63,674 nucleotides of DNA from a virus: the IMG/VR virus record IMGVR_UViG_3300048839_000884, positions 1 through 63,674 of that record; one strand, written 5' to 3'. Numbering within the stretch: the stretch's first letter is position 1; each line of letters starts with the position of its first letter. The notes under the pieces are model-generated. The model saw nothing but the letters and a program-made list of their open reading frames with translations. It was not told where the DNA came from and did not search any database. A program made the translations under genes and the position numbers. Below are positions 25,801-63,674 of the stretch, piece after piece.

Positions 25801-28800
25801 CGTTCCGGTTCTCCTCGGCGGAGACCGCCGCGCAGTTCCTGTTCGACGGCCCGCGCGCGATGCGGATGATCCTGTCGGAAGACGGGCTCTTCTCGGCGTC
25901 CATGAACGACGCCGGCGGATTCGCGATGAATGTCCGCGTTCAGGGTGGGCGCCCGTGGATGCTCCTCCGGCCGGCGCGCGATGCCTTCGCCGGCGACTTC
26001 GAGCAGCGTCGCGGCCAGCCGCTTGCGAAGCTCACGGTGATGAGCCGCGAGCGGTTCGTCCGGGGCCTCAAGGCATACGAGGAAAACCTCGGCGCGGTCT
26101 TCATCACCAACGCCAACCGGGCCGAGGCGCGCGCGGTGGAAGACGCTGCCGCCAGCCGCGGCCAGAACGAATCCGCGTCGATCAGGGGCCGCGCCTCGGC
26201 GCGCGCCGCCGTCCCGAAGCCCGCCGTCGCGCTCTCCGATGAGCAGCGCGAGATAGTCAACATGGTGTCGAGCATCGTCGGGTTCGCCGCCCCGGTCGGG
26301 TTCGAGAGCGAGATCCGCGTTCGCGGCTTCGGCGCGCAGCAATGGGGCGTAGACGAAACGAGCGCGGACGGGTCGTTCAACTGGACGACGAACGTCATCA
26401 AAATCGCGATGGACGGCCCGGATCGGCGGCGGGCGGCGCGCCACGAGATCGGGCACGCGCTCCAGACGCTCTACACGGATCAGGAGCGCGCCGTCCTCAA
26501 GGCCGAGATCGACCGCCTCCGCGAGTTCGTCCGCTCGCACCCGGAAGGGCACCCGGACATCGCAACCGCCTCACCGGCGGAGGTCGAGGCCGAGGCGTTC
26601 GCCCTGTATTGGGCCGACCGGCAGGCACAGCGGCCGACCGGGTCCGGGATCCACATCGTCATCCGGCGGGCGTGGGAGCGGATCATCGCGACCTTCGGGC
26701 GCGTCAGGAACGCCTTGCAGGGCCGCGGCTACCAGACAGCCGAGGACGTGTTCAAGCGCGCGCTGGCCGGCGGGATGCGCCGGCGCGACCGCAATCCGAT
26801 GTCGGCGGCGCAGCGGCGCTACCTGTTCGGAACGGGAGAGCCGGAGGCGAGCCCCGCTGCCCCGCAGCCGGGGTCTGGGACGACGCAGGTCGCCACGACA
26901 GCAGGCTCATACCGCAAGGCCGCGGCCATCATTGCGGGAATGGGTGGGCGCCGCGTCCTAGACTACGGCGCCGGGCTTGGTCTCGGCAGCGATGCTATGT
27001 CCGAGCGCGGGCTCGATGTCTCGTCCTTCGAGCCGAACCCGCAACGGTGGTCCGGCAAGACCCCGGTCACCTTCACCGACTCTGACCAGATCACCGGCCA
27101 GTACGACGGTGTCGTCAGCCTCAACGTCCTGAACGTTCTGGAGCCCGAACTCCGCGACGAGGTCACCGCTGACATCCTCGCGCGCGTCGCGCCGGGCGGG
27201 TCCGCCTTGATCGGAGCGCGCCGATGGGAGGGGGACGTCGGCGCCACCAAGAACGCCGAGGTGACCGGCGAGCCAGATGCGATATGGGTCAACAAGAGCG
27301 GCGTGCGCGTCTACCAGAAGGGGTTCTCCGGGAACGAACTGGTCGACTACGTGACGAGGATGGCCGGCGAAGGCTGGACCGTGCGCCGGGTGAACGGGAT
27401 CGGCGCTGTTGGGGTCATCGCGACCCGGAGCGCAGATATGGTCTCCGCGGTGCGCCGGCTTCGCCCCGGACAGCAGATCAACACCCCGGTCGCCCCGACG
27501 CCGCAGCAGACGTTGGCGCAGGCGCAGGCGGTCTTGCAGCGCACCCGGCGCCATTTCAGCGGGCTGTCCAGAATGGATAAGCTTCGCGTCAAGGTGCAGG
27601 ACCGGTTCCTCGCCGTCCGCCGCGATCAGGAGCGCATGGTCGCGTCCGGGTTCCAGATGCGGGCCGCCAACGACACCTACGAGGCGGAGGAAAGGTTCCC
27701 CGGCAAGGCCGGAGAGCGCATCGCGCTTCTGGAGGAACGGGCTCTCCAGCCGTTCGTCAGGCATCTTCGGGAGTCCGGGATCAGCATCGAGGAACTGGAC
27801 GACTACCTGATCGCCCGGCACGCGGAGGAGCGGACGGACCGGATCGCGCAGATCACCAACGGGCAGAACATGGAAGGCGCCGGCGTCGATCTCCAGTCGG
27901 CGAATGACGTGCTGGCGGATGTGGCCGCCGACGCGCGCCATCAGGATTTTCTCCGGGCGGCGGCGATGATCGACAAGGTGATCCGGGATACCCGCGACCG
28001 CCAGTTCCAGTCCGGCCTGATCTCCCGCGAGGAGTACGACTCGTTGCGGACCATGTACCAGCACTATGTCCCGCTCCGTGGGTGGGAAGCCGACCCCGAG
28101 CTTGCGGAAGACCAGCCGCTCGGCACCGGCCGCGGCTTCGACATTCGCGGGAAGGAGAACAAAGCGGCGTTCGGGCGCACGACGAAGTCGGACTCCCCGA
28201 CCGCCTACGTCTTCATGGCGGCGCAGCAGTCGATCATCCGGTCGGAGAAGAACCGCGTTCTCCGCACGTTCCTCCGGTACGTCGACGAGGTGAACGACCC
28301 GACCCGGTTCGAGCGGGTCAAGGGCCAGTACCGGAAGCGGATCAACCCGCGGACCGGGTTCGTCGAGGTCTACTTCGTCCCGGCGCAGGCGATGGACGAC
28401 CGGGACATGGTCTCCATAAAGCAGGGCGGCCGGGAGATCCGCGTCAGGGTCCACGACCGGGACATCCTCCGCGCGCTCCAGCAGTTCGGCTCGGTGGAGG
28501 TGAACGGGTTCCTGCGCGGGCTGATGCGCGTGGCGCGCATCTACGCCCAACTCCAGACGCAGTGGAACCCGAGCTTCATCGTCCCGAACTTCTTCCGTGA
28601 CGTCGAGACGGCGCTCATCAACATCTCGGACGTCGAGAACCTGCCGCCCGGCACCCGCCGGCGCCTGACTGGAAAGCTCGGCAAGAGCATATGGGGGATC
28701 ATGAAGGCGCTCCGGGAGTCCCGGAAGACGGGGCGCCCGCCGACCGGGGCCGTAGGCCAGTTCTACGAGGAGTTCCGCCTCGCCGGCGGCAAGGTCTCGT

Positions 28801-30176
28801 TCGGGATGGTCGACCCGGTCGAGCGGATCAAGGATCGCATCGACGACGCGCTCGACACCTCGAAGTGGGGAGGCGTCAAGCGCGCCGCGCGCGATAACCC
28901 TGTCTTCCGACTCATCACGGACGCGAACGAGGCGGTCGAGAACGGCGTGCGCCTCGCCGCCTACATCGCGCTCCGGGAAGCCGCGGTGCCGCAGACCAAG
29001 GCGGCATCCATCGTCCGGAACCTGACGACGAACTTCAACCGCCGCGGCGAGTACGGGCCGGCGATCAACGCCCTCTACATCTTCTTCAATGCCTCGCTCC
29101 AAGGCACGACGAGGATGCTCCACTCGATCCGCCGGTCGAGGACGACGCAGGCCATCGTCGTGTCTCTCGTCGGCGCCGGCTTCGCCATGGACGCCTTCAA
29201 CATCCTCGTCTCTGAACTGTTCGGCGACGACGACGAGGAGAAGCGCGCCTACGACGAGATTCCGGACTACGTGAAGGAGCGGAACTTCGTCCTGATGATT
29301 CCGGGGACGAAGGAGTATCTGAAGCTCCCTCTGGCCTTCGGCTACTCGTGGTTCTACAACACCGGCCGCCTCGTTTCGGCGACGATGCGCGGGGCTGTAG
29401 AGCCGGGCGAGGCGGCCAAGCAGACCGTTCTCTCCGCGCTCGATGCCTTCAACCCCATGGGCACCGCGCCGAGTATTGGGCAGTACATCACGCCGACGCT
29501 CGCCGACCCTGCGGTCCAGATCGGCGAGAACCTGAACTTCTTCGGCTCGCCGATCCGGCCGGAGAACTTCGACCGCTCGGTGCCGGCGTCGCAGACGGCC
29601 TACGATAGCGTCGGCGCGCCGTGGCGCGTGATTGCCGAAGGACTGAACAGCATCACCGGCGGCACGGCCGGGCGGCCGGGCGCCATCGACGTGAGCCCGG
29701 AGGACATCGAGCACATCGTCGAGTTCGCGACCGGCGGCGCGGGGCGGTTCATCGCCAACACGATCAAGGCTGGCGGGGCCTTGCTGGGCGCCACGGACAC
29801 CGAATGGCTTCCGGAAAAGACCCCGATCCTCAACTCCTTCTACGGCTCCGGCGGCACGGTGCAGGCGCAGCGCGACGCCTTCTACCGGGCATGGCGCGAA
29901 GTCGATCAGGCGGACCACGAGGTCAAGGAGTTGAAGAAGCGCGGCGACATCGAAATGATGCGCCAGCGCCAGCGCGAGTACCGCACCGAGATCGCCGCCT
30001 ACCCGCACTTCTCGAAGGTCTACAAGGAGCTTGGCGAGATCCGGCGGGAGAAGTCCCGCATCCGCGACAAGCTCTCCGGAGCCGAGCGGCGCACCGCGCT
30101 GGAGCGGCTGGAGGAGCGGGAGAAGCGGCTCATCAGCGGCGTCATGCGCCGGCTTGAGGTCGAGGAGGCGAACTGA
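16839..30176 (+). CDS. Giant polyvalent (DarB-like) virion protein: pyrophosphatase-like, two methyltransferases, SNO-type helicase, zincin, LPD38
   Basis: 4,445 aa in one open frame. Segments in order: Gly/Ala-rich possible membrane-active region (about 188-370); pyrophosphatase-like domain with GDHLDVFIGP near 820; class I methyltransferase with EPTAGNG (about 1328) and NPPF (1388-1391), N6-adenine type; Strawberry-notch-like helicase with GDQTGVGKG (1939-1947), DESH (2078-2081) and HRTGQ (2481-2485); zincin with HEIGH (3202-3206) and a downstream Glu-rich ligand helix; a second class I methyltransferase (VLDYGAGLGLG near 3373); and a C-terminal region of about 3700-4370 resembling LPD38. 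This order is known for polyvalent proteins injected with phage DNA to protect or modify it against host restriction (P1 DarB is the studied case). Injection is inferred. Linkers near 550-630 and 1525-1645 are overprinted by two other-frame genes. Confidence 0.88.
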   Translation: MADDVFRRRLEELMLRDFGVANVGAVPLPGFEDRLPDIPAEDPPPRPRPRPTDPATEIPSLDELIGDRTTAPRPKSKPSSPMDGIPTLEEMTGARVPTGYVDSALNALGRGWNQAQQGIAVIGESTGLLTPAEAARDLVQNQRDLEQYPTSADEDQAWKDWENAKGFWESAGVALSNPFDIAAQTMISSLPHSIPSVAGGLAGAAGGTMAGGPVGGTAGLVGGMFAGGIAPEYAASLLDVMREEGVDTNDELSIQKAFEDPLLMARAKAEALRRGVAVSAFDAATALVGGKLVPAAVKRGISKPLTTLLAGGIEMAGGAAGEAAGQLAAKGEITDAGDIGLEAIAEGPGIVTDTGVAAATEAINRGVQPSAPAPAPAPAPTTAAPTAPPAPTTAGPTQMVISDPGGPRDGQVVTVDPNQPQDQPTLIVTDDQGRQFRVGKRVLTESGAAPPMAAPVGAGSQAAGGPPPTPQASPAPSSPSAITPEQRALLRNMGYPDDDIDVMDPEQARYEAEAALEDGVTATPDDIERARVYQPPAAEPIIMGDEEDERGVPLDQRGDPVVGTTEDAPGVPSGDGNTGPGGRGGAGVGDVPVRPDAPVGGVPDAEGLDPQSGARPAQQDTAGRVPVGSPVVEPGRTGPEESPEDDVTVDDINDLDMDPDAMRRRLEKAGVDPDRAVLIATGAQTDEAGNDIMLDSAEERRLYEVIVDEIRERRAAARQAAVDAPMPPATVPEGTGTRKRPAKVTTEDDLAPAREVVAEPTDAQAQAGNYQKGHVRIAGMDVSIETPKGGTRRSKDPANPWEAVSPADYGYFKNTTGKDGDHLDVFIGPKPDNGQAFVIDQYDPATGRFDEHKVVLGVDSAEEAQALYDAAFSDGSGPTRRGGIKAMSTDDLRGRLAVRKSLGRRPLGGPRPQAPAPAPAPAAPPAAPTNPAQVEGAGRPNVWARGSELQGRDLDTVLATLADEGYSDDEIATRGVAGWLGEDDPSPDPVDIPMPPIADMARAKIYDGKSDERVLRELRDDGYPEEQIVSEAIPAIEKVRRELADEAERNKARADEKKAKAAEAATAAESPQLTNRQKAEAGRVWDSLSPGERLRQIADAGIYADDQSSRNASQSSWDELAPGIRENVARELLIPKPPRPTPTQDPKDFALDYVRDKGTMVGLGTAMIDAGYEPDVVEDAARAAQESMNAPAKPDAADDEETIPEGVWEEARDALVGALIERIDGEGMTIVEARKIAREVDPSLTNKQVEELVEAAMVDIGRSTARGAQNRGRAPLDVFRSFVRLYSVQPRLDQRTSTSMEQQAYSTPLPLAYLAANLAEIGPKDTVYEPTAGNGMLLITASPSNIIANELNPDRFASLERSLPSANLHQGDAMAYAPSEKVDAVITNPPFGKVKRDDQTSVRWNIDGRFTPLVDHAIAWRALKSMRKGGRAVLIIGGQRGTTDERRNGYRNDDVRAFFKKLYDAYNVVDHFTVDGKLYERQGASWPVDVIVIDGQGASKFSYPMAEPPPIYSSWDALEEKFDDRVATPRKPEERGSGADTGPAGAADAGPVSSPVGRPDRPAGQEGGGQEGGVPASGGAAGGRGADAEPAARGGRDADGGAQQRPDRSGGVADGAGAAAGTGARSGSREGAGGGDAGGVSGRGLPVDPEVEAAFDEAMAEVFGEPAAEPDEASEAAEALDEVAKALSAAAKRIGGKKKKASTAPAAEPAPEPTVGEAAASAVSNAATGLDEVASGLFQLFGGPKVSSGFSFDEETWAKAKPLFLSGLSHMRAAGRDVVDMMKALLRYLQEKANFTADMVRAMRPYITRVITEVKAGVLAIPQAQVDPASQKKATKEKVRRENLERETTYQVAYEPTSAARFAVGTLVPNNMQTAIKDSLAKLSERVGDIDEYVAGKLGYTLDELLGTDSKPGYFSAEQVDALALAISNVEDGGGFIIGDQTGVGKGRFVAAMIRYAMRAGKIPVFFTKQPGLYGDMVRDLRDIGMAGIEKRIFLTNKDLTGSKTIPLSEDPTDVLRSPTAAQMTRALAQMQNGGTLGPEFDVVFTTYAQVNFGGKGKPYDRHHALRGIAPSAMFILDESHLAGGSDAKPQVDKATGNPIPRRQDFVRELLGASQGAVYSSATYAKNPYVMSLYFKTALGQAMPNPERLSEVIKAGGVPLQQVVANMLVEGGQYVRRERSFDGVEMNMEQLPTDVAKADRAAETLGEVFGLDRDFMEGVRQAYIEEMASEGMSAMGDEAVGENSASSVGFANVMHNVVAQMLLALKAPAVADRAIALHKAGEKPIIALANTNESIINDFIEDQKLKEGDEAPITFNRILDRYVNRLRRIGLKDENDKRTYYYLTDDDIERLGGEAALEAFKEVERKVKEADLSGLPASPIDYVMDRLEQAGIQVDEITGRQNTLRGGVVTKRVSTDRSKKLVMNAFNAGRVNALIINKSGSTGFSLHATAAKNNDGKQRHMLLLQPDPNIDDFMQMLGRIHRTGQIKLPKYTLAISDLAVEKRVAAVLMKKMASLNANTTGGKKSAVSLEAVDFMNEYGDDVVTDFLRDNPDIAQRIAVYPPSGEEKTSSDSSIAARFTGRLAILPSAEVQRIYDEIEKTYVDYVKSLENMGINTLEARTIPLDAETKSTMEMVPARDGDGPFDAAANVETVSVARLGSPYKSDEVRKQLEDALAGRTPRQVIEEAISSLRDKMPGYLSQIDEAIARKEEERDSTESEARQGRANVAIDHLQKKRAEAEAALESVIDMLRTMAPGNTGNLGVNIGEVSANLPAVILDIDTRRVRANPTAKSAIIIRVAIGDASRELRAPLSKFRPAVLAANSDVAEDLPTGYFFIPNGGNIAGSPPKVVATIGENETPVYVGDRIRVDSYSTGQFEGTITEAAPYGQVRVQNYREPVSSWQIAEVTKEGPREWGPADEASLSFWDNNVDQDDTQTREERQIITGNLLAGFETFRRGQFIFYTTSAGEVRQGILMPRNFDAQRELDSQAFRFSSAETAAQFLFDGPRAMRMILSEDGLFSASMNDAGGFAMNVRVQGGRPWMLLRPARDAFAGDFEQRRGQPLAKLTVMSRERFVRGLKAYEENLGAVFITNANRAEARAVEDAAASRGQNESASIRGRASARAAVPKPAVALSDEQREIVNMVSSIVGFAAPVGFESEIRVRGFGAQQWGVDETSADGSFNWTTNVIKIAMDGPDRRRAARHEIGHALQTLYTDQERAVLKAEIDRLREFVRSHPEGHPDIATASPAEVEAEAFALYWADRQAQRPTGSGIHIVIRRAWERIIATFGRVRNALQGRGYQTAEDVFKRALAGGMRRRDRNPMSAAQRRYLFGTGEPEASPAAPQPGSGTTQVATTAGSYRKAAAIIAGMGGRRVLDYGAGLGLGSDAMSERGLDVSSFEPNPQRWSGKTPVTFTDSDQITGQYDGVVSLNVLNVLEPELRDEVTADILARVAPGGSALIGARRWEGDVGATKNAEVTGEPDAIWVNKSGVRVYQKGFSGNELVDYVTRMAGEGWTVRRVNGIGAVGVIATRSADMVSAVRRLRPGQQINTPVAPTPQQTLAQAQAVLQRTRRHFSGLSRMDKLRVKVQDRFLAVRRDQERMVASGFQMRAANDTYEAEERFPGKAGERIALLEERALQPFVRHLRESGISIEELDDYLIARHAEERTDRIAQITNGQNMEGAGVDLQSANDVLADVAADARHQDFLRAAAMIDKVIRDTRDRQFQSGLISREEYDSLRTMYQHYVPLRGWEADPELAEDQPLGTGRGFDIRGKENKAAFGRTTKSDSPTAYVFMAAQQSIIRSEKNRVLRTFLRYVDEVNDPTRFERVKGQYRKRINPRTGFVEVYFVPAQAMDDRDMVSIKQGGREIRVRVHDRDILRALQQFGSVEVNGFLRGLMRVARIYAQLQTQWNPSFIVPNFFRDVETALINISDVENLPPGTRRRLTGKLGKSIWGIMKALRESRKTGRPPTGAVGQFYEEFRLAGGKVSFGMVDPVERIKDRIDDALDTSKWGGVKRAARDNPVFRLITDANEAVENGVRLAAYIALREAAVPQTKAASIVRNLTTNFNRRGEYGPAINALYIFFNASLQGTTRMLHSIRRSRTTQAIVVSLVGAGFAMDAFNILVSELFGDDDEEKRAYDEIPDYVKERNFVLMIPGTKEYLKLPLAFGYSWFYNTGRLVSATMRGAVEPGEAAKQTVLSALDAFNPMGTAPSIGQYITPTLADPAVQIGENLNFFGSPIRPENFDRSVPASQTAYDSVGAPWRVIAEGLNSITGGTAGRPGAIDVSPEDIEHIVEFATGGAGRFIANTIKAGGALLGATDTEWLPEKTPILNSFYGSGGTVQAQRDAFYRAWREVDQADHEVKELKKRGDIEMMRQRQREYRTEIAAYPHFSKVYKELGEIRREKSRIRDKLSGAERRTALERLEEREKRLISGVMRRLEVEEAN
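18481..18732 (+). CDS. Overprinted small gene inside the polyvalent ORF (83 aa)
   Basis: Another-frame gene, ATG 18481 with GACGAGGAAG just upstream, TAG at 18730-18732. It encodes 83 residues starting MSEAYRSTSE, with a hydrophobic middle (AYLLETAIPDPVAVAVLA) and folded-looking composition. Third codon positions in this frame are almost all G or C, as in other genes here. The giant ORF read through the same bases gives a Gly/Pro/Ala/Asp low-complexity linker with many A or T third positions. Both signs say this frame is the one under coding selection. Function unknown. Confidence 0.72.
   Translation: MSEAYRSTSEATRSSGPLRMHRAYLLETAIPDPVAVAVLASGTYQYGPMRRLVESPTPKDWILNLVLDPRNRIPQDEFLSALL
21406..21780 (+). 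CDS. Overprinted gene inside the polyvalent ORF (124 aa)
   Basis: Another-frame gene, ATG 21406 preceded by GGAGGAG (21391-21397), stop TAG 21778-21780. It encodes 124 residues (MIAWQPPGSQ...) with a long charged helix (RIDRLVRKVEDKKEAYRLL, about 42-60) and an acidic C-terminus. Third positions are overwhelmingly G/C. The giant ORF across the same DNA reads as a Gly/Ala/Arg/Asp low-complexity linker with poor third-position bias. It lies just after the N6-adenine methyltransferase domain. Family unknown; the GAVLIPDPPARLTPDQ element shares an IPDP core with the other overprinted gene. Confidence 0.78.
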   Translation: MIAWQPPGSQRNAGAVLIPDPPARLTPDQYRALLADRIDRLVRKVEDKKEAYRLLEERLVGEGLTLNQRLAVAGMLMAEHSNALIGAAGSPTAPVPRRELEHDPALAKALEEETLEEFLDAVYQ

Positions 30177-39477: not shown

Positions 39478-39493
39478 GGATCCCTCCTGTTGG

Positions 39494-40270
39494 TCAGGCT
39501 GACTGCATCACGCGGCGGAGCGCGCCGCGGGTGTGCTCGTACATCGCGGCGACGATGGCCTCGCTCATCGTTTCCTGAAACCGCGGCTTCCACTTCTTCC
39601 AGACGGCCTCGACGTCGGTCTTCGATTCCGCGACGTCGAGATCCATGAGGTAGGCGTCTTCGTCGGCGCGCTGCTCGGTCGTCAGCACGATCTCGGGCTC
39701 GCCCGGCACCTGCGGCTCGCCCGGCCGCTCGTCTCGCTCCTGCGGCAGCGGATCCTCCCGCGGCGGCGGCGGCGGCCGGCGGGGCGGCTGGCGCACGGGT
39801 GGCGGCGCCGGCGGCGCCCGCCGTGGCAGGCTCGGCTCCGGCCGCCGGTCGTCGTAGGCGGCGCCGATGTCCGCGTCCTCGTCGCTGGCCACGCCCAGCG
39901 CCACGCAGGCGGCGTAGCGGCGCGCGTAGGTCAGGTTGCCGCCGATCTGCTGCATGGCGGCGCCCGCCTGCCCGGCCGGCATCCGGCCGGCGTCGATCAC
40001 TCCGCCGCCCCGGTGCAGGATGCGGGTGCAGACGACGAGGCCGCCGTTCTGCGTGATCTCGACCGACTGCGCGAGCGCGAGCCCGTGCTTGGCCAGCACC
40101 GGCAGCGCCACGGCGAGGACGTCGGCGATGTCGGCGTACTTGTAGCTGTAGCCCTGCCGCCCGTCCTTGCCCGGCACCTTCGCCTCCTTGTTCTTCGGGA
40201 TCGCCGGCACCTCGCCCTGAAAGGCCGACAGGGCGGCGTAGGCTTCGGCGAGCGGGTCACCGGCGGACAT
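39494..40270 (-). CDS. erf: ERF-family single-strand annealing protein
   Basis: 258 aa. The N-terminal 140 residues match the ERF superfamily: YKYADIADVLAVALPVLAKH near 43-62, and the signature GGNLTYARRYAACVALGV near 113-130. Residues 145-190 are a Pro/Arg-rich linker, and the C-terminus is a small helical domain. ERF proteins anneal single-stranded DNA and circularise or recombine phage genomes. ATG 40270 follows GGAGGTCG; it overlaps the upstream gene by 14 bp, its likely partner. Confidence 0.92.
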   Translation of the reverse strand: MSAGDPLAEAYAALSAFQGEVPAIPKNKEAKVPGKDGRQGYSYKYADIADVLAVALPVLAKHGLALAQSVEITQNGGLVVCTRILHRGGGVIDAGRMPAGQAGAAMQQIGGNLTYARRYAACVALGVASDEDADIGAAYDDRRPEPSLPRRAPPAPPPVRQPPRRPPPPPREDPLPQERDERPGEPQVPGEPEIVLTTEQRADEDAYLMDLDVAESKTDVEAVWKKWKPRFQETMSEAIVAAMYEHTRGALRRVMQSA

Positions 40271-42824: not shown

Positions 42825-43577
42825 ATGTCGAGCATCGGACCAGTCGAGCAAGCCGCACGCGCCCGCCGGCAGCAGCTTCGCGCCAAGTTCTTCCCCGACC
42901 GGGAACACCTCATCGCCCGGTCGCGTCACAGAGCCTCACCGCACCCGGTCGACGTCGTTCAAGGCTGCGTCCTGATGGAGATGGCCGAGGAGCCCGAGGC
43001 CCCAAAGGTCACCGAGGTGGAGGCGATGATCGTCCCGCCGGTCGGCATGGACGTAACCCCGGAGGTGCTGTCCTTCGTCGGCTCCTATCCCGTCACGATG
43101 TACCTGCACGAGCCGACCACGAAGCGCAGCGCGAAGGCGATCATCAAGCTAACAGCCGCGGCGCACGGGTTCCGCGTCGATGCCTTGGCCGGCCCGCGCC
43201 GACAGAAGGATCTCGTCTTCGCGCGCCACGAGGCGATATGGCGCGTCGCGATGGCCTGCCCGCACCTGAGCCTCCTAAGCATCGGCCGGCTGATCGGGAA
43301 CCGCGACCACACGACGATCCTGCACGCGATCCACGCCTACGACGAGATACTGCGCGCGCAGGGCCGCACCGCCTTCGTGGCGCAGTGCATAGAATGGGGC
43401 GGGCTCACAGCCGACGAAGCGGAGCGGACCTTCGACAGCGGCGCGCAGGCGCTCCGGCGAGAGCGGGTGAAGGCGAAGGCCGACCGCGACGCGATGAAGA
43501 AGCGGCTGGAGCGCGAGGCGCAGCGGGCCGCCCGTGCTGTGGAAAACGGGGACAGCGCGAAGGGGGGTGCGAAGTGA
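42825..43577 (+). CDS. DnaA domain IV-like DNA-binding protein (250 aa)
   Basis: 250 aa. Residues about 113-178 match the DnaA C-terminal DNA-binding domain, with SLLSIGRLIGNRDHTTILHA at 149-168 keeping the RDHTT signature that reads DnaA boxes. The AAA+ ATPase domain of DnaA is absent. The N-terminus (1-110) is unlike DnaA and the C-terminus is a basic helix. ATG 42825 follows GGAGGGACACC. It may mark the phage origin, recruit the host replisome or compete at host DnaA boxes. Confidence 0.88.
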   Translation: MSSIGPVEQAARARRQQLRAKFFPDREHLIARSRHRASPHPVDVVQGCVLMEMAEEPEAPKVTEVEAMIVPPVGMDVTPEVLSFVGSYPVTMYLHEPTTKRSAKAIIKLTAAAHGFRVDALAGPRRQKDLVFARHEAIWRVAMACPHLSLLSIGRLIGNRDHTTILHAIHAYDEILRAQGRTAFVAQCIEWGGLTADEAERTFDSGAQALRRERVKAKADRDAMKKRLEREAQRAARAVENGDSAKGGAK

Positions 43578-43741: not shown

Positions 43742-44640
43742 ACCGCCGGGCTTTATCGAGGCAGCGGAAGGAAAACGTCAATGAAATCAAGCGATGGTTG
43801 CTTCTTCTGGAGCAGAAGATCGCCGGGATCGACGAAAAAGTGGCACAGAAACGGGTCCGGCGGGGCGAAAAGCCCAATGAAATCAGCGTCCCGTGCCCAA
43901 AGCGCCTCGCGCGCACATACGTATGGGTGCCCGCGCGCGTAGTTGTTTCTTTCTCCTCACTACGTTCGGAGGATAGGGATCCACCTTCGGTGTCTCCCTC
44001 TCCTCCTCCACTTCGTTCAGAGGTTAGCCTCGCTTCGCTCGGCCCGCTCGCTTCGCTCGCTGACCCCCTGACTGATTTTTCAAATCCTTCGGATTGTGAA
44101 GAAATCAGTCCTCCCCCGCTGCCGGCGGCCGATCCGGAACCCGGTCCGACCCGGACATCGCGGGTTTCGGGGAAAAGTCGGATCGGGCTTGCGTCTCCCG
44201 GCTGGGATGTGTTCTGGTCGGTCTACCCCAAGCGGGCCGGCCGAGTGGCGGCGGAGCGGGCGTGGCGGGTGGTGGTCGAGCGTGGCGGCGTCGACCCGGA
44301 GATGGTCATCGAAGCGGCCCGGCGGTACGCGGCCAGCCGGGTGAGGCAAGACCCGAGGTACACGCTCCACCCGGCATCGTGGATCCGGGGACGGCGGTTC
44401 GAGGACGAGGAGGGATCCGGCAGTGAACAGCATCGTGGCGCATCGTGGTCCTTCTCCGGACGAGACCTCCTTGAGGCGGTCCGTCGCGGTCCTTCTGGCG
44501 GAGATCCAGTCCCGGCCGGGAGTGCGCGTCCCGCCGATCAGCCGGCCGCTGACGGACGCGGAGCGCGAGTGGGCGGACGCCCGGCTGCGGGAGATCCGCG
44601 CGGACCTCGCGCCGAAGGAGTTCGACGTCCCGGTCGCTGA
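43738..44640 (+). CDS. Replication-type protein with hairpin-rich linker; 3' end reads into the next gene
   Basis: 300 aa. Residues 1-45 duplicate the preceding 55-aa protein. Residues 65-125 are a Ser/Leu/Pro linker encoded by a pyrimidine-rich hairpin cluster. Residues 155-228 (WDVFWSVYPKRAGRVAAERAW and ending HPASWIRGRRFEDE) match the C-terminal domain of phage replication proteins. The last 75 residues read low-complexity and overlap the next gene by 218 bp; a stop seems to have been lost after residue 230. ATG 43738 overlaps the previous stop. Confidence 0.7.
   Translation: MNRRALSRQRKENVNEIKRWLLLLEQKIAGIDEKVAQKRVRRGEKPNEISVPCPKRLARTYVWVPARVVVSFSSLRSEDRDPPSVSPSPPPLRSEVSLASLGPLASLADPLTDFSNPSDCEEISPPPLPAADPEPGPTRTSRVSGKSRIGLASPGWDVFWSVYPKRAGRVAAERAWRVVVERGGVDPEMVIEAARRYAASRVRQDPRYTLHPASWIRGRRFEDEEGSGSEQHRGASWSFSGRDLLEAVRRGPSGGDPVPAGSARPADQPAADGRGARVGGRPAAGDPRGPRAEGVRRPGR
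43954..44109 (+). other. Cluster of TTCG-loop hairpins inside the replication gene
   Basis: Hairpins in order: TCCTC/GAGGA (43954-43973); AGGGA-tc-CACC, loop TTC, GGTG-tc-TCCCT (43975-43999); CCTC/GAGG near 44007-44023; GCTTCGCTCG repeats near 44031-44060; and a long imperfect stem ACTGATTTTTCAAATCC, loop TTC, GGATTGTGAAGAAATCAGT (44071-44109). Base composition is pyrimidine-rich and more A+T-rich than its surroundings. Compare lambda, where the origin lies inside gene O. Origin, RNA structure or selfish repeat are all possible. Confidence 0.7.
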
Positions 44641-46296: not shown

Positions 46297-46503
46297 TCAC
46301 GGCGCGTCCCAATGCACGTTCCGGAGCGCCTGCGCGGCGCGCTCGATGCCGGCCAGCCATTCCGTGTAGGCGGCGCCCTGCGGCCCGTCCTGCCAGCGGA
46401 TCGGCTGGCGGTTCAGCCATTGGCGGCCGTGCCCCAGCGACATCTCCAGCGCCTCCAACGTCTCGTCGAGCAGCTTCGCCGTGTGCCTGTCCAGACTCTT
46501 CAT
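46297..46503 (-). CDS. Hypothetical helical protein, 68 aa
   Basis: 68 aa, start 46503 with GGAGGGATCC. Two likely helices separated by a Trp-rich turn (RQWLNRQPIRWQDG). Small early-type accessory protein; no family recognised. Confidence 0.63.
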   Translation of the reverse strand: MKSLDRHTAKLLDETLEALEMSLGHGRQWLNRQPIRWQDGPQGAAYTEWLAGIERAAQALRNVHWDAP

Positions 46504-46538
46504 GGATCCCTCCTATGCGGGCGGGTGGTGCCCGAGAA

Positions 46539-46563
46539 GGCCGGCGGATCGCACCCGCCGGCC
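46539..46563 (-). repeat. 25-bp G+C hairpin identical to that at 47888
   Basis: GGCCGGCGG / CCGCCGGCC stem with a 7-nt loop; all 25 bases are identical to 47888-47912 in another spacer 1.3 kb away. It lies in the 70-bp space between the genes 46297-46503 and 46574-46873, which shares the start-proximal GGAGGGATCC but not the GGAGC hairpin of the other spacers. Confidence 0.75.
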
Positions 46564-46573
46564 GGCTCTCGCA

Positions 46574-46873
46574 TCACTCGTAGCGCGGGCGGAACTCCGG
46601 GAAGTGCTTCGGCGCCTTCCCGACCGGATGCACCTCAAGGCAGTAGCGGCCTCCGGAGTAGGCCATGGACGAGAGCGGGCGCAGGCTGCGGTTCCGGTCC
46701 TGCATCCGCTCCAGCAGGTCGCCCATCCGCCGGCAGGCCCGTGCGGCCTCGCCCTTGGTCTTCCAGCGGCGCCTGAGGGTCCGCCGAAGGTCGCCGTAGG
46801 TGAACCACCAGCCGCCCTCCTCCGGGCCGCCGTAGCCCATGCCTAGCTCGTAGACGTGGATTGCGTAGCGCAT
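46574..46873 (-). CDS. Hypothetical protein, 99 aa
   Basis: 99 aa, starting MRYAIHVYELGMG; the ATG overlaps the stop region of the upstream gene. Tyr/Gly/Arg-rich, with a helix at about 38-60 and a C-terminal basic/aromatic strand. Shares the pattern of a short N-terminal beta strand with other members of the block. No family recognised. Confidence 0.62.
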   Translation of the reverse strand: MRYAIHVYELGMGYGGPEEGGWWFTYGDLRRTLRRRWKTKGEAARACRRMGDLLERMQDRNRSLRPLSSMAYSGGRYCLEVHPVGKAPKHFPEFRPRYE

Positions 46874-47145
46874 CACGACGCCCTCCTCTCGCCGGCGTAG
46901 TAGCGCCGCCACGACCCGCCCATTTCGTCGAAGTCGCGGATCGAGACGTGGTCGCGGGCGGTGCGCTTGCGCGCCGGGTGCTCGGCGATGACGACGTAGC
47001 GCATCTCCTCGCGGTCGAGCGCGGCGCGCTGGATCGCCTCCGCCTGATCGAGCGTGTCGCAGCGGACGGACAGGCGGGAGACCCCGCCCTTCGCCTCGCC
47101 CCAGCCGCTCAAGAACCTGTCGACCATGTTGACGTAGAAGCTCAT
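46873..47145 (-). CDS. Hypothetical protein, 90 aa, first gene after a promoter
   Basis: 90 aa, start 47145 with GGAGGGATCC. Mixed alpha/beta; residues 25-57 (LSVRCDTLDQAEAIQRAALD) resemble a small fold with a strand and helix. It is the first gene downstream of the palindromic promoter at 47192-47220, with a leader of about 40 nt that can form a GC hairpin. Confidence 0.65.
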   Translation of the reverse strand: MSFYVNMVDRFLSGWGEAKGGVSRLSVRCDTLDQAEAIQRAALDREEMRYVVIAEHPARKRTARDHVSIRDFDEMGGSWRRYYAGERRAS

Positions 47146-47191
47146 GGATCCCTCCGGGTGGTGGCGCCGGGCAACCCGCCCGACGCCCTCG

Positions 47192-47220
47192 ACTATACAC
47201 GAAACTGTTGCATATGCAAC
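47192..47220 (-). promoter_or_regulatory. Minus-strand promoter with GTTGCATATGCAAC operator
   Basis: Perfect 14-bp palindrome GTTGCATATGCAAC (47207-47220). Its TTGCAT (47219-47214) serves as -35, a 16-bp spacer follows, then TATAGT (47197-47192) as -10. A repressor dimer on the palindrome would cover the -35. The same design occurs at 49606-49635. It would drive the 46873 and downstream genes. Confidence 0.8.
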
Positions 47221-47224
47221 GGTG

Positions 47225-47434
47225 TCACCAATCCTGCACCCGCACCTCGACGGTCAGACCGGGGCGGAGAAGGGTCCGGGGGACGGTGAACTCCAGCCCG
47301 GAGGCTGTCGCCATGACGGCGCGCGAGCGCGGCCACGTCTCGCGGACGTAGCCGATGGCTTCGTGCAGCGTCGGGAACTCCGCGACGCGGTTCATGGTGG
47401 TGGGCGTGAAGCCGCGAAGCACGACGGTGGTCAT
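47225..47434 (-). CDS. Hypothetical protein, 69 aa
   Basis: 69 aa, starting MTTVVLRGFTPTT at 47434 with GGAGGGATCC three bases further upstream than usual. Beta-rich with one helix (TLHEAIGYVRETW). It ends just before the palindromic promoter. No motif recognised. Confidence 0.63.
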   Translation of the reverse strand: MTTVVLRGFTPTTMNRVAEFPTLHEAIGYVRETWPRSRAVMATASGLEFTVPRTLLRPGLTVEVRVQDW

Positions 47435-47655
47435 CTGGATCCCTCCGAGCGGATGGCGCGCCGCAGGTGCGCGATGAAGGACTGCCGGCTCCCGTAGTCG
47501 TGCCGGCAGGCGGGCGAGTGTGAGACGACCGCGACGAGGCGGCCGTCGATCCGGACCTGTAGGTGCTTGCCCCCGACCCGCACGTCGACGCGGTCGCCAA
47601 GCGGATCGAGGATAGCGCGCACGCGCGGGTCCGCGAGGATGCGGTGCCGCGCCAT
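47431..47655 (-). CDS. Hypothetical protein, 74 aa
   Basis: 74 aa, starting MARHRILADPRVR; the start overlaps the upstream stop region at 47655 and the end overlaps the next gene by 4 bp. Basic, beta then helix. Directly coupled to both neighbours, with no spacer module. No motif recognised. Confidence 0.62.
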   Translation of the reverse strand: MARHRILADPRVRAILDPLGDRVDVRVGGKHLQVRIDGRLVAVVSHSPACRHDYGSRQSFIAHLRRAIRSEGSR

Positions 47656-47852
47656 CAGTCCTCGTCCTTCTCGGTCGCCGCAAAGGACAGGATGCCGATG
47701 CGGTTCCCGTTGAAGTCGCGAAGCGGCGTGTAGATCACCTCGCCCCCGGATTCGAGGTGGGCAAGCGCGACGCGGAGGACGCTCATCGCCACTTCGCGCG
47801 GCATGGCGGTCGCGTCGGCGCCGTACGACCGGACGTCGATCAGAAGTCTCAT
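47655..47852 (-). CDS. Hypothetical protein, 65 aa
   Basis: 65 aa, starting MRLLIDVRSYGAD at 47852 with AGGAGGGATCC. Strand-helix-strand pattern (helix REVAMSVLRVALAHLESG), acidic end. First coding segment downstream of spacer module A. Confidence 0.65.
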   Translation of the reverse strand: MRLLIDVRSYGADATAMPREVAMSVLRVALAHLESGGEVIYTPLRDFNGNRIGILSFAATEKDED

Positions 47853-47922
47853 GGATCCCTCCTGTATGGAGCACTGGCGCTCCGGGAGGCCGGCGGATCG
47901 CACCCGCCGGCCGACCGCTGCG
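47853..47922 (-). repeat. Spacer module A
   Basis: 70 bp. In minus orientation: stop-proximal CGCAGCG, GC hairpin (47888-47912, 9-bp stem), GGAGC-GCCAGT-GCTCC hairpin (47868-47883), then AGGAGGGATCC before ATG. Confidence 0.88.
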
Positions 47923-48162
47923 TCAGGCGAGACGGCGAACTTCGGCGATCAGGTCCGGGCGAAGGCGCAGGTGATCCACGCCGACACCGACCGGCTCCCG
48001 GACGACGGCGCCAAGCACCCCGTCGGTGATCCACGCTCGGCCGCCGTAGGCAGTCACGCAGCCCGAATCAGACAGCGTGAAGGTGCCTATCCCCTTCGGG
48101 CAGGCAAATTCCACCTCGATGCCGAAGAAGCCCGGGCGGGCCGAAATGATTCTGATGCTCAT
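47923..48162 (-). CDS. Hypothetical protein, 79 aa
   Basis: 79 aa, starting MSIRIISARPGFFG at 48162 with GGAGGGATCC. Beta-rich (FGIEVEFACPKGIGTFTL) with a C-terminal helix. Flanked on both sides by spacer modules. The end (CTCGCC-TGA-CGCAGCG) follows the rule shared by the block. Function unknown. Confidence 0.65.
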   Translation of the reverse strand: MSIRIISARPGFFGIEVEFACPKGIGTFTLSDSGCVTAYGGRAWITDGVLGAVVREPVGVGVDHLRLRPDLIAEVRRLA

Positions 48163-48232
48163 GGATCCCTCCATCGTGGAGCACTGGCGCTCCGGGAGAG
48201 GCAGGGCACGCGGCCCTGCCCCGACCGCTGCG
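48163..48232 (-). repeat. Spacer module B
   Basis: 70 bp with CGCAGCG, GC hairpin GGCAGGGC/GCCCTGCC (48200-48220), the GGAGC/GCTCC hairpin (48178-48193) and GGAGGGATCC. Its GC hairpin is identical to that of module D. Confidence 0.88.
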
Positions 48233-48493
48233 TCAGGCGAACGGGAACGGGCCGAAGCCGTCCGGCCCGAAAAGCCCCCCGCGCGGAGGCTTCCGCCCGA
48301 CGCACAGGTAGGCCCCGCGCCAAATCTGGACCGCCTCTTTCCGGGTGACGGCGCGGGCGCGGCGGTTGCTCTCCATGGCGACGAAGGCGTCGCGCTCCTC
48401 GCGGGTGGCGAACCGGGCGACCTCCCAAGTGTTCGCGAATCCCCGGTTTCCCCGGTCTAGGTCGGCGTAGATGTTGTAGGTAGCGTAGAACAT
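48233..48493 (-). CDS. Hypothetical protein, 86 aa
   Basis: 86 aa, start 48493 with AGGAGGGATCC. N-terminal aromatic strand (FYATYNIYADLD), central charged helix, basic Gly/Pro-rich end. Between modules B and C. No motif recognised. Confidence 0.65.
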   Translation of the reverse strand: MFYATYNIYADLDRGNRGFANTWEVARFATREERDAFVAMESNRRARAVTRKEAVQIWRGAYLCVGRKPPRGGLFGPDGFGPFPFA

Positions 48494-48563
48494 GGATCCC
48501 TCCTGTATGGAGCACTGGCGCTCCGGGAGAGGCCCCGCCGGCGGCGAGGCCCCGACCGCTGCG
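48494..48563 (-). repeat. Spacer module C
   Basis: 70 bp; GGAGC/GCTCC hairpin at 48509-48524, GC hairpin at 48531-48551 with one G-U type pair, CGCAGCG next to the upstream stop, GGAGGGATCC before the start. Confidence 0.88.
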
Positions 48564-48755
48564 TCAGGCGAGCCCCAACGCCTGCGTGAAGCCGTGCAGC
48601 GCGTCGTGCGTCAGGTCGGCGCGGGTGACGTCGCCGTAGACCCGGTAGACGCGGAGGCGCCCGGTCGCCGGGTCGTACTTGCTGTCGAAGTGGATGAGCA
48701 CCCCATCCTCGCGGGTGACCGGCTCGTAGGTGTAGGTGATGCGCTTGTCTGCCAT
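48564..48755 (-). CDS. Hypothetical protein, 63 aa
   Basis: 63 aa, starting MADKRITYTYEPV at 48755. Mostly beta strands, then one helix (THDALHGFTQALGLA). Between modules C and D. Function unknown. Confidence 0.64.
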   Translation of the reverse strand: MADKRITYTYEPVTREDGVLIHFDSKYDPATGRLRVYRVYGDVTRADLTHDALHGFTQALGLA

Positions 48756-48826
48756 GGATCCCTCCTGTGGTGGAGCACTGGCGCTCCGGGAGAGGCAGGG
48801 CACGCGGCCCTGCCCCGACCGCTGCG
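48756..48826 (-). repeat. Spacer module D
   Basis: 71 bp; GGAGC/GCTCC hairpin 48772-48787, GC hairpin 48794-48814 (identical to module B), CGCAGCG and GGAGGGATCC. Confidence 0.88.
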
Positions 48827-49150
48827 TCAGCCGCCGATGTGGCGCATCGCCTCCTCCCACGCCGGCCGCGCGCCCCGGCAGGGCCGATAGCTGCGGCAGG
48901 GCGCAGCCCCGCGCACGTCGGCGCCGGCGAAGACCGGGCGCGACCCAAAGGTCTGGATCACGCGCCAGATGACGACGGCGGCGTCGCAGTCCTCCTCGGC
49001 GTAGAGGGTGCCGTCGGGGCCGACGTAGCTGTACCGGGTGAGCATGTCCTCGGTGAGCCCGATTTCGTCGGCGAGCGCCGGCCCGACCATGACCCAGCCG
49101 TGCGCGGGGTCGGTGACGTGGGTGAGGCGGATGGTGGTGGTGGTGTTCAT
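48827..49150 (-). CDS. Hypothetical protein, 107 aa
   Basis: 107 aa, starting MNTTTTIRLTHVTD at 49150 with GGAGGGATCC three bases further out. Strand-rich N-terminus, helix EDMLTRY, Cys-containing C-terminus. Between modules D and E. No family recognised. Confidence 0.65.
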   Translation of the reverse strand: MNTTTTIRLTHVTDPAHGWVMVGPALADEIGLTEDMLTRYSYVGPDGTLYAEEDCDAAVVIWRVIQTFGSRPVFAGADVRGAAPCRSYRPCRGARPAWEEAMRHIGG

Positions 49151-49225
49151 GTCGGATCCCTCCGGGTGCTGGAGCATGGCGCTCCGGAGGACGCCCCGCC
49201 CGTAGGCGAGGCGCCCGCCGCTGCG
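49151..49225 (-). repeat. Spacer module E
   Basis: 75 bp; the hairpin is GGAGC-GCCAT-GCTCC (49171-49185) with a 5-nt instead of 6-nt loop, so the stem is conserved while the loop is not. GC hairpin 49193-49212. Confidence 0.82.
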
Positions 49226-49564
49226 TCAGCCGGCCATCTCGGGGTCGACTTCGGCGAGGAGCGCGTCCAGCGCCGGAGCGTTGGCGGTGCAATCGCTGAT
49301 GACGTCCGCGCCATTGCCGTGGATGAGCCAGACCCGGCCAATCTGCGCCGGGGCGACCGGGTCGCGGAAGTTGAGGGTCGTCTCGTCGGTCGCGCAGACT
49401 TCGGCCGTGATCGCTTCATAGTCGGTCGACCGCTTGAGCGACCATTCCTCGCCGTCGAACACGCTGATGGTCCAGCCACGGCCGAGCGCGGCGCGGATGA
49501 GGCGGTCGACGATAGCGCGCTCGGTGTCGAGGTGCGGGGCGAGGTAGTGTTCGGGGTAGGCCAT
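49226..49564 (-). CDS. Hypothetical protein, 112 aa, first gene after a promoter
   Basis: 112 aa, start 49564 with AGGAGGGATCC. Mixed fold: helix 14-30, strands around WTISVFDGEEW and GRVWLIHGNG, acidic helix at the end. First gene after the promoter at 49606-49635; its leader carries a CCGGGCG/CGCCCGG hairpin. Function unknown. Confidence 0.66.
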   Translation of the reverse strand: MAYPEHYLAPHLDTERAIVDRLIRAALGRGWTISVFDGEEWSLKRSTDYEAITAEVCATDETTLNFRDPVAPAQIGRVWLIHGNGADVISDCTANAPALDALLAEVDPEMAG

Positions 49565-49605
49565 GGATCCCTCCTTGGTGCTGCCGGGCGACGCCCGGTC
49601 CGAGA

Positions 49606-49635
49606 GTTATAGCGCCAGAGCGTTGCACATGCAAC
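49606..49635 (-). promoter_or_regulatory. Minus-strand promoter with GTTGCA..TGCAAC operator
   Basis: Palindrome GTTGCA-TG-TGCAAC (49635-49622). TTGCAT (49634-49629) is the -35, 17-bp spacer, TATAAC (49611-49606) the -10. The palindrome is further framed by AGCGCCA/TGGCGCT arms (49610-49616 and 49639-49645). Same architecture as 47192-47220, so a shared regulator is likely. Confidence 0.82.
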
Positions 49636-49657
49636 ACCATGGCGCTTTTCTGACAGG

Positions 49658-49999
49658 CTAGATCGCCCTTGGGATGTTGGCGAGGATCGCCTGCCGGACC
49701 TTGTCGACGCCGGCGTTGGTGACGTCGTCCAGAACCTTGCTCTCGACGACGCGCCGGCCGCCGTCGGGGCGGACGCGGATCGTCAGGCTTGCGACATGGC
49801 CGCACATGCCGGCCATGGTGGCGGCGCCCATGACCGCGCCGACGATGGCGATGGTCATCTCCTCGCGGGTGCGGCACAGGACCGGGTGCGCGTCCAGCAG
49901 GTCGACAATCTCGTCGCTGCGCCGCGCGGTCGTCGCGTTGACCCACATCCAGAAGTCGTCGCCCGTGCCATCGGCGTTGACGTTGATGTTGATGCTCAT
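49658..49999 (-). CDS. Hypothetical protein, 113 aa
   Basis: 113 aa, starting MSININVNADGTGD at 49999 with AGGAGGGATCC. A central Ala/Gly/Met-rich hydrophobic stretch (MTIAIVGAVMGAATMAGMCG, 48-67) could be a membrane helix or buried helix. Ends just before the 49606 promoter. No family recognised. Confidence 0.64.
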   Translation of the reverse strand: MSININVNADGTGDDFWMWVNATTARRSDEIVDLLDAHPVLCRTREEMTIAIVGAVMGAATMAGMCGHVASLTIRVRPDGGRRVVESKVLDDVTNAGVDKVRQAILANIPRAI

Positions 50000-50066
50000 G
50001 GATCCCTCCTGTGTGAAGCACTGGCGCTTCGGAAGGCCCCGCCCGTAGGCGAGGCCGGCCGCTGCG
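50000..50066 (-). repeat. Spacer module F (covariant hairpin)
   Basis: 67 bp; hairpin GAAGC-GCCAGT-GCTTC (50015-50030): both sides of one pair changed (G-C to A-T) relative to modules A-E. GC hairpin 50035-50056, stop-proximal CGCAGCG, AGGAGGGATCC. Confidence 0.88.
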
Positions 50067-50441
50067 TCAGCCCCAGCGGTAGTCCCCGGCGCCGGCCCAA
50101 GCCGCGAAGTTCCCGTCCTCCATCGCCGCGAGGCGCCGATCCGCCGCGTTGCGCTCCAGCTCGCCCATCCGGTCGTCGGTGACGACCCGCTCGCCCTTGC
50201 AGGCGCCGCAGACCACGTCGTAGTCACCACGCCAGTAGGATTCCTCGAAGTCCGGGTCGTCGTCGAAGTCCTCGGCCGTGAGCCCGTTGCAGTCGATGGA
50301 CGGGTTGACCGTGGTCCCCTCACCGTCGCAGACCGGGCAGACCATGTACTTGCGGCGGTGCGGGCGGCGGTGCGCCGGCTCCTCGTCGTCCTCGGTGCGG
50401 CACTCGTCGTCCGGGTGGACGGAAATGATCGTGATGCTCAT
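50067..50441 (-). CDS. DnaJ-type zinc-finger protein, 124 aa
   Basis: 124 aa, start 50441 with AGGAGGGATCC. Two Cys pairs, CPVCDGEG (35-42) and CGACKGE (78-84), match the CxxCxGxG repeats of DnaJ-like zinc fingers, with a very acidic loop between them. The N-terminus is His/Arg-rich. Probably binds zinc and a protein partner; a host-interaction role would suit an early small gene. Confidence 0.72.
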   Translation of the reverse strand: MSITIISVHPDDECRTEDDEEPAHRRPHRRKYMVCPVCDGEGTTVNPSIDCNGLTAEDFDDDPDFEESYWRGDYDVVCGACKGERVVTDDRMGELERNAADRRLAAMEDGNFAAWAGAGDYRWG

Positions 50442-50510
50442 GGATCCCTCCTGTGGTGAAGCACTGGCGCTTCGGGCGACCGGGGCGCTCGGCCCCGGCC
50501 CACCGCTGCG
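50442..50510 (-). repeat. Spacer module G (covariant hairpin)
   Basis: 69 bp; hairpin GAAGC-GCCAGT-GCTTC (50458-50473) as in module F, GC hairpin CCGGGGC/GCCCCGG (50480-50498), CGCAGCG, AGGAGGGATCC. Confidence 0.88.
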
Positions 50511-50891
50511 TCAGGCCGAAGCCCGCTCAAGCGCCGCGTCCATCCGGGCGATGGCGGCCCGCGCCTCCTCCGCGTCCATCGCGTTCATGATCGCCTTGAA
50601 CACATCGGCCCGGCTGACCCCGATCATCGCCGGCTTGATCCCGGCAAGGGCACCCGCCGCCTGCTCCAGAGCATGAGCCGCCGTGGAGGCGACGTCCGCC
50701 GCAGCCTGCGCGGTCCGGAAGTCCTTGGCATATCCGCACTGCGTGAAGGTCAGGACGTAGTCGGCGTCGGTCCGCTCGACCCCGGCATGGTCCATCATGC
50801 GGACCCAGACGGAGATCAGGAAGTCGTCGCTGTCCGCGCTCCGGATAACCGAGAGTTCAAGGTCGATGCGGATGTCGATGGGCTTGGTCAT
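50511..50891 (-). CDS. Hypothetical protein, 126 aa, leading gene of the minus block
   Basis: 126 aa, starting MTKPIDIRIDLEL at 50891 with GGAGGGATCC four bases further out. Beta-rich first half, Ala-rich helices in the second (AAADVASTAAHALEQAAG). It is the first gene of the minus-strand block after the divergent region 50892-51004. Confidence 0.66.
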   Translation of the reverse strand: MTKPIDIRIDLELSVIRSADSDDFLISVWVRMMDHAGVERTDADYVLTFTQCGYAKDFRTAQAAADVASTAAHALEQAAGALAGIKPAMIGVSRADVFKAIMNAMDAEEARAAIARMDAALERASA

Positions 50892-51004
50892 GGTCGGATC
50901 CCTCCGGTCTGGCGGGCGATCCCCTATGGACCCACCACGCCGTGCCGATAAGATGGCATGTCTCGGCATCCCGTGCAACACGGTACAAATGACAGGGGGA
51001 CCAT
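50892..51004. promoter_or_regulatory. Divergent control region between minus and plus blocks
   Basis: 113 bp between oppositely directed genes. It holds an inverted repeat CCGTG-CAA-CACGG (50971-50983), which contains a TGCAAC/GTTGCA half-site like that in the twin palindromic promoters. No promoter with good -35, spacing and -10 could be picked by eye for either strand; TTGCAC with TCTTAT on the minus strand has a 19-bp spacer. Confidence 0.5.
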
Positions 51005-63376: not shown

Positions 63377-63674
63377 ATGGCCATCCAGATGAGCACCACG
63401 CTCCGGAATGCCCGTCTCGACGCCATCGAGACGACCATCGGAACGTCCGCGATCCTCGAAATCCGCACCGGCGCACAGCCGGCGAACTGCGCTGCCGCCG
63501 ACAGCGGAACGCTTCTCGCGTCCCTGACCCTCCCGTCGGATTGGCTGGCGGCCGCGTCGAGCGGGTCGAAGGCGCTCGCCGGAACGTGGGAGGACACCTC
63601 CGCGAACGCCGGCGGCACCGCGGCGCACTGGCGCCTCAAGGACAGCGGAGGCTCGACCTGCCACATGCAGGGCA
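63377..63674 (+). CDS. Small virion-type protein, 5' part (continues at base 141)
   Basis: First 99 residues of the 135-aa junction gene, starting MAIQMSTTLRNARLDAIE at ATG 63377, 9 bp after the portal stop. Ala/Thr/Gly/Ser-rich with a TIGTSAILEIRTGAQPANCA core, a pattern often seen in small structural proteins following phage portal genes. The 298 + 110 bp lengths sum to 136 codons, so the join is in frame. Confidence 0.8.
   Translation, partial: MAIQMSTTLRNARLDAIETTIGTSAILEIRTGAQPANCAAADSGTLLASLTLPSDWLAAASSGSKALAGTWEDTSANAGGTAAHWRLKDSGGSTCHMQG

Follow-up and report, generated by a model that had tools for sequence, protein, structure and literature searches.

A stop-anchored, structurally conserved intercistronic RNA element repeated at eight gene junctions of one phage genome

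When unrelated small genes are separated by nearly identical spacers, it has to be asked which property of the spacers is conserved and what it might do for the genes on either side. We examined this in an IMG/VR virus record of 63,674 bases, the whole of which is the window analyzed here. Its two ends are identical over 126 bases (15-140 and 63549-63674), which reflects either a terminal repeat or overlap in the assembly; bases 1-14 precede the repeated stretch. By capsid and portal, the phage lies near Escherichia phage PTXU04 and Vibrio phages such as 431E46.1, with identities to this group of 44-50% for the capsid (tblastn) and 26-27% for the portal. Elsewhere in the window we observed about ten tandem copies of a 63-nt unit inside the gene of an 838-aa protein (1623-2373, plus strand), an ERF-type recombinase (39494-40270, minus strand), and a protein with a DnaA C-terminal DNA-binding domain (42825-43577, plus strand).

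Most proteins of the gene row that contains the spacers belonged to no recognized family. These proteins were not paralogous, so that unrelated proteins share a common spacer, and gene duplication was therefore rejected as the origin of the spacer copies. The exception to this dissimilarity was the pair of genes following modules B and G, whose first bases were alike (28/36). One small protein of the row (50067-50441, minus strand) has two CxxC cysteine pairs and weakly resembles zinc ribbons and DnaJ central domains, with family matches below threshold only.

A sequence-only reading of this region had described seven spacer modules, A to G. All seven were found in the place and order claimed, on the minus strand, but an eighth copy, H, which lies outside the range considered, had been overlooked. 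H emerged when the genome was searched at the nucleotide level, and it has the architecture and fold of A to G with changed letters. The gene row and the modules are as follows.

46297-50891, minus strand: small predicted genes in a row, separated by modules (our own gene calls, uncurated)
47853-47925, minus strand: module A, consisting of stop codon, rod hairpin, small alternative hairpin, GGAGGGATCC, and ATG at 47850-47852
48163-48235, minus strand: module B, core as in D
48494-48566, minus strand: module C
48756-48829, minus strand: module D, core as in B
49151-49228, minus strand: module E, small-hairpin loop 1 base shorter, GAC between GGATCC and ATG
50000-50069, minus strand: module F, GAAGC/GCTTC variant
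50442-50513, minus strand: module G, GAAGC/GCTTC variant
46504-46576, minus strand: module H, core as in A, outer arms re-paired, CGGGC/GCCCG small hairpin

The ending AGGAGGGATCC followed by ATG, which had been attributed to every module, was exact in five of them (A, C, D, F, and G), whereas B carries TGGAGGGATCC instead and E carries CGGAGGGATCC, then GAC and ATG. Module E, said to differ in its loop only, showed further differences from the other modules. The arms and the loop GCCAGT were nearly identical in A-D, F, and G, while the cores varied. The covariance model R1, built from all eight modules, scored its own modules at 64-102 bits by construction, and the 82 bits of H are not independent because H was among the training sequences. 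Searching the genome with R1 revealed no further strong copy; the best other match (24 bits) lay on the opposite strand of a module. Judged from their sequences, the eight spacers are real copies of one repeated, structurally conserved intercistronic RNA element within a single phage genome.

RNA folding of the spacers yielded one long hairpin, called the rod here, and not two hairpins in series. The two-hairpin fold proposed earlier was thus mostly wrong: the CGCAGCG block forms one arm of a single rod and the GGAGC block the other. The upstream stop codon forms the root of this rod (cTGaCGC..CGG / CCG..GCGcCAg), and the variable GC hairpin its cap. The 5' arm of the rod comprises the base before the stop codon, the U and G of the stop codon, and the CGC and CGG of CGCAGCGG, which pair with the CCG, GCG, and CAG of CCGGAGCGCCAG in the 3' arm. 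The stem is interrupted by small internal loops and spans 22-24 steps (pairs plus mismatches) in all eight copies, corresponding to about two helical turns. The stop codon lies at the rod base in 8/8 copies, with the preceding base re-paired in H, and an unpaired AG in the 5' arm was retained in seven copies. The rod regions folded better than dinucleotide shuffles (z from -1.9 to -3.8); for H alone, a shorter folded fragment favored a mixture of the rod and the small hairpin.

The pairing was then evaluated on an eight-row MAFFT alignment, A1. Across 16 pairs, 99.2% of the cells were standard and nine pairs were doubly changed, the columns for these counts having been chosen after the folds were seen. 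None of 500 shuffles matched the rod pairing; these shuffles ignore relatedness, and the structure under test was derived from the same sequences. Sliding the columns by one to three positions lowered the paired fraction to 41-54%. Because A1 misaligns E by a single column, both in the small hairpin and over part of the core, and also shifts H in the small hairpin, pair cells are undercounted there. Within the variable core, pairing was kept across six different sequences: the core arms of each copy paired fully with each other, whereas arms swapped between copies with differing cores left 2-7 pairs. In the outer arms of H, four pairs were changed on both sides and 9/9 pairs were retained, for which the chance was 3e-4 in a fixed-register composition shuffle. 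The earlier proposal of selection on structure is upheld mainly by these two observations, on which that proposal had not drawn, and the copies are not just exact recent duplicates, as the cores and H differ. Selection on base pairing, implying that the shape of the RNA matters, is well supported by these sequence comparisons.

Where the core stems had imperfect pairs, these were G.U on the transcript strand, with A.C absent throughout (about five independent cases), which favors an RNA over a DNA dyad. If both strands were equal, such a bias would arise in roughly 3% of trials, and this argues against a DNA-level element lacking an RNA role, such as an operator, a recombination or gene-shuffling sequence, or a template-switching palindrome. 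The position and orientation of the modules are also fixed relative to stop and start codons, and a strict scan gave no promoter-like site in the region. On the other hand, mutation alone can make palindromes more perfect, and a DNA element would suit the occurrence of the same core in A and H, and in B and D, amid different surroundings, as well as the similar gene starts after B and G (28/36). Taken together, we consider a purely DNA-level role quite improbable. A and H share a core with different arms, whereas B and D share both core and arms; these common cores, together with the alike starts of the genes after B and G, indicate that the spacers move between genes, behaving as a portable cassette. 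GC-rich hairpins located directly after stop codons might further be taken for intrinsic terminators between the genes. A T run followed none of the modules and a terminator scan found none of them, so that this most improbable explanation is largely refuted by the sequence.

Downstream of the hairpins, the modules carry the start element. GGAGGGATCC occurs in 14 exact copies, against about 0.4 expected, and every copy lies shortly before a predicted gene start. The 3' end of 16S rRNA, used here for comparison, reads AGGAGGTGATCC, and AGGAGGGATCC is its complement minus one base; as a near-complete complement, it could allow unusually long pairing. The following copies of GGAGGGATCC stand apart from any module.

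47146-47155, minus strand: after a promoter-like leader with its own 10-bp hairpin
49565-49574, minus strand: after a promoter-like leader with its own 6-bp hairpin
50896-50905, minus strand: at the first gene of the gene row
47437-47446, minus strand: within the end of the upstream gene
39478-39487, minus strand: outside the gene row
44409-44418, plus strand: before a GTG at 44423

The palindrome GTTGCAYRTGCAAC is present at only two places in the window, 47207-47220 and 49622-49635. It sits at the -35 position of a promoter-like arrangement on the minus strand (TTGCAT, 16-17 nt, then TATAGT or TATAAC) that the strict promoter scan did not list. The palindrome may be an operator.

The GGAGC:GCTCC hairpin next to the start element, which had been proposed as part of the module, uses the same GGAGC as the rod, and the two folds are therefore mutually exclusive. 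The paired change in F and G from GGAGC/GCTCC to GAAGC/GCTTC is real; being common to neighboring copies, it counts as one event, weak on its own. Covariation of the small hairpin thus amounts to this event plus a shifted version in H. When the small hairpin was counted alone, 85% of the cells were paired and 7/500 shuffles reached its covariation score, and in this GC-rich genome about 14% of random positions have a hairpin of comparable strength before them. As an alternative fold in these modules, the small hairpin is plausible on folding models.

How could two exclusive folds serve a gene junction? A terminating ribosome, its A site on the stop codon, occupies roughly nine bases beyond that codon. 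Each spacer would be a cis-acting RNA element of a polycistronic phage mRNA, and a ribosome ending the upstream gene would cover the stop codon and about nine bases, a stretch that makes up the outer arm on the 5' side. This would open the lower part of the rod and leave the GC core, just outside the footprint, closed. The freed GGAGC (GAAGC, CGGGC) could then pair with GCTCC (GCTTC, GCCCG), and the small hairpin would take that pyrimidine stretch away from the Shine-Dalgarno sequence. Initiation of the next gene would in this way be tied to translation of the previous one, and the module would act as a portable gene-junction cassette. Coupling by RNA unfolding, with alternative helices and a terminating ribosome, has been described (PMC12548453). 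Tentatively, and on the strength of folding models, we put forward as the best explanation that a terminating ribosome unfolds the base of the rod, and that this base then refolds into the small hairpin, adjacent to the following ribosome-binding site.

The computed folds bear on this explanation in several ways. When the stop codon and the next 9-12 bases were removed from folding, the small hairpin formed with a probability of about 1.0 in isolated modules, except in E, where it was lost with the 12-base footprint. Footprint removal lowered Shine-Dalgarno pairing with upstream bases in 8/8 modules. Adding 45 bases of the downstream gene made the effect less regular, and with the downstream gene present the computed refolding gain was about 1 kcal/mol or nothing. 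In 8/8 copies, opening the Shine-Dalgarno sequence took less energy than with shuffled spacers, which weakened our first model, strong Shine-Dalgarno masking. It has also been reported that structure right after a stop codon can reduce coupling and that coupling across long spacers is poor (PMC12548453). A chain of eight ribosome-termination-sensing switches, in which translation of each gene is conditional on finishing the previous one across spacers of about 70 nt, with the switches spread among unrelated genes as portable cassettes, appears rather unlikely.

Since refolding is supported and strong masking of the site is not, a processing or insulating role is a close rival. According to this possible alternative, the rod would be an RNase III cleavage site or a barrier to 3' exonucleases, giving hairpin-capped gene ends while the next ribosome-binding site is kept open. 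Rods of 22-24 steps in all eight copies, with core sequences free to vary, are consistent with it, as is the greater openness of the Shine-Dalgarno sequence relative to shuffled spacers (8/8; as a mean across varied upstream sequences, 7/8). The spread of opening energy between upstream contexts was, however, not reduced, as insulation would require, and any ribosome reaching the stop codon would open the lower rod, an awkward location if the site has to remain folded. The spacers of relatives also differ from this rod length. A site at which a small RNA or an RNA-binding protein, from phage or host, controls the gene set, with arms and loop kept constant for recognition, might likewise account for the near-identity of the arms and GCCAGT loop in A-D, F, and G amid varying cores, and for the AG left unpaired in seven copies. 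H, altered in both arms and loop, still stands at a gene start, and no regulator was identified, the zinc-ribbon-like cysteines of 50067-50441 having sub-threshold matches only; such a site seems quite unlikely. Any of the roles suggested from the outset, namely translation control, processing, and homology for shuffling, may apply.

We also looked for the element beyond this genome. Searches of IMG/VR, GTDB genomes, a phage collection, and Rfam revealed no homologue of the module: matches from the IMG/VR scans and from a scan of one genome per GTDB species were judged chance on reading, distant blastn of the module against phages returned nothing, and Rfam 15 gave no family above the gathering score in the window. 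Related capsids were encoded at 71 IMG/VR loci. A covariance-model search of 41 of the relatives' records gave weak matches only (E 0.3-0.9), judged chance on reading, and the array proteins tried had no relatives in IMG/VR or in the records of the capsid relatives. Two IMG/VR records, G002 and G007, with 57% and 56% capsid identity to the window phage, resemble it in having small minus-strand genes with a hairpin soon after the stop codon and a second structure at the Shine-Dalgarno sequence. They differ in their sequences, in having no array of near-identical copies, and in rod length. Ten spacers, taken from G002, G007, and another contig, showed stronger masking of the Shine-Dalgarno sequence than their shuffles did, contrary to the window; this contrast is no more than suggestive, as these spacers were picked after reading. 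The structured spacers of the relatives are analogues at most. G002 has its own repeated start-region motif, AGCAACGGAGG (locus L098, 5500-6700), accompanied by a hairpin, of which one copy has GGGTT-AACCC and another GGATT-AATCT.

Among known systems, the element, as judged from sequence, resembles the start-associated sequences (SAS) of cluster K phages and is not a member of them. The cluster K SAS is a short element with a Shine-Dalgarno core before the starts of unrelated non-structural genes, with an inverted repeat upstream in about half of cases; both systems therefore repeat an element with this core at many unrelated gene starts. The 13-bp cluster K sequence GGGATAGGAGCCC (up to 2 mismatches) matched the window twice, against 2.2 expected. 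The cluster K ESAS is a 17-bp inverted repeat with a SigA-like promoter and without covariation, whereas the stems in the window covary and the strict scan gave no promoter in the modules. Inverted repeats that lack covariation and come with promoters favor a DNA role in cluster K. Unfolding coupling and translational attenuators (PMC12548453) share with our element mutually exclusive helices, one of which would be blocked by a ribosome in the upstream frame; our element, in contrast, recurs at eight junctions of a single genome with the stop codon as its anchor, the folding calculations give weak masking of its ribosome-binding site, and coupling is a prediction.

RNase III sites between the early genes of phage T7 are long interrupted hairpins in a polycistronic transcript, and to our knowledge they are not rooted on the stop codon. 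The window has a predicted long interrupted intergenic hairpin too, and its length of 22-24 steps would be compatible with an RNase III processing site. Phage start-associated repeats, known since 2011, have had no function assigned to them, and for the best-studied example RNA pairing was considered unlikely; the similar arrangement found here comes with clear covariation, making the structure directly testable. If the modules are switches, they would be a compact, naturally occurring means of coupling genes across long spacers; if they serve processing, a T7-like solution would have been reached via a stop-anchored element. An N4-type hairpin promoter was also considered and appears unlikely, since a virion RNA polymerase was unmatched and the 4445-aa protein of the window has no polymerase family match, although a missing match does not prove that the enzyme is lacking. 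This protein (16839-30176, plus strand) matched the DarB-like antirestriction, pyrophosphatase, DNA methylase, strawberry-notch helicase, and LPD38 families.
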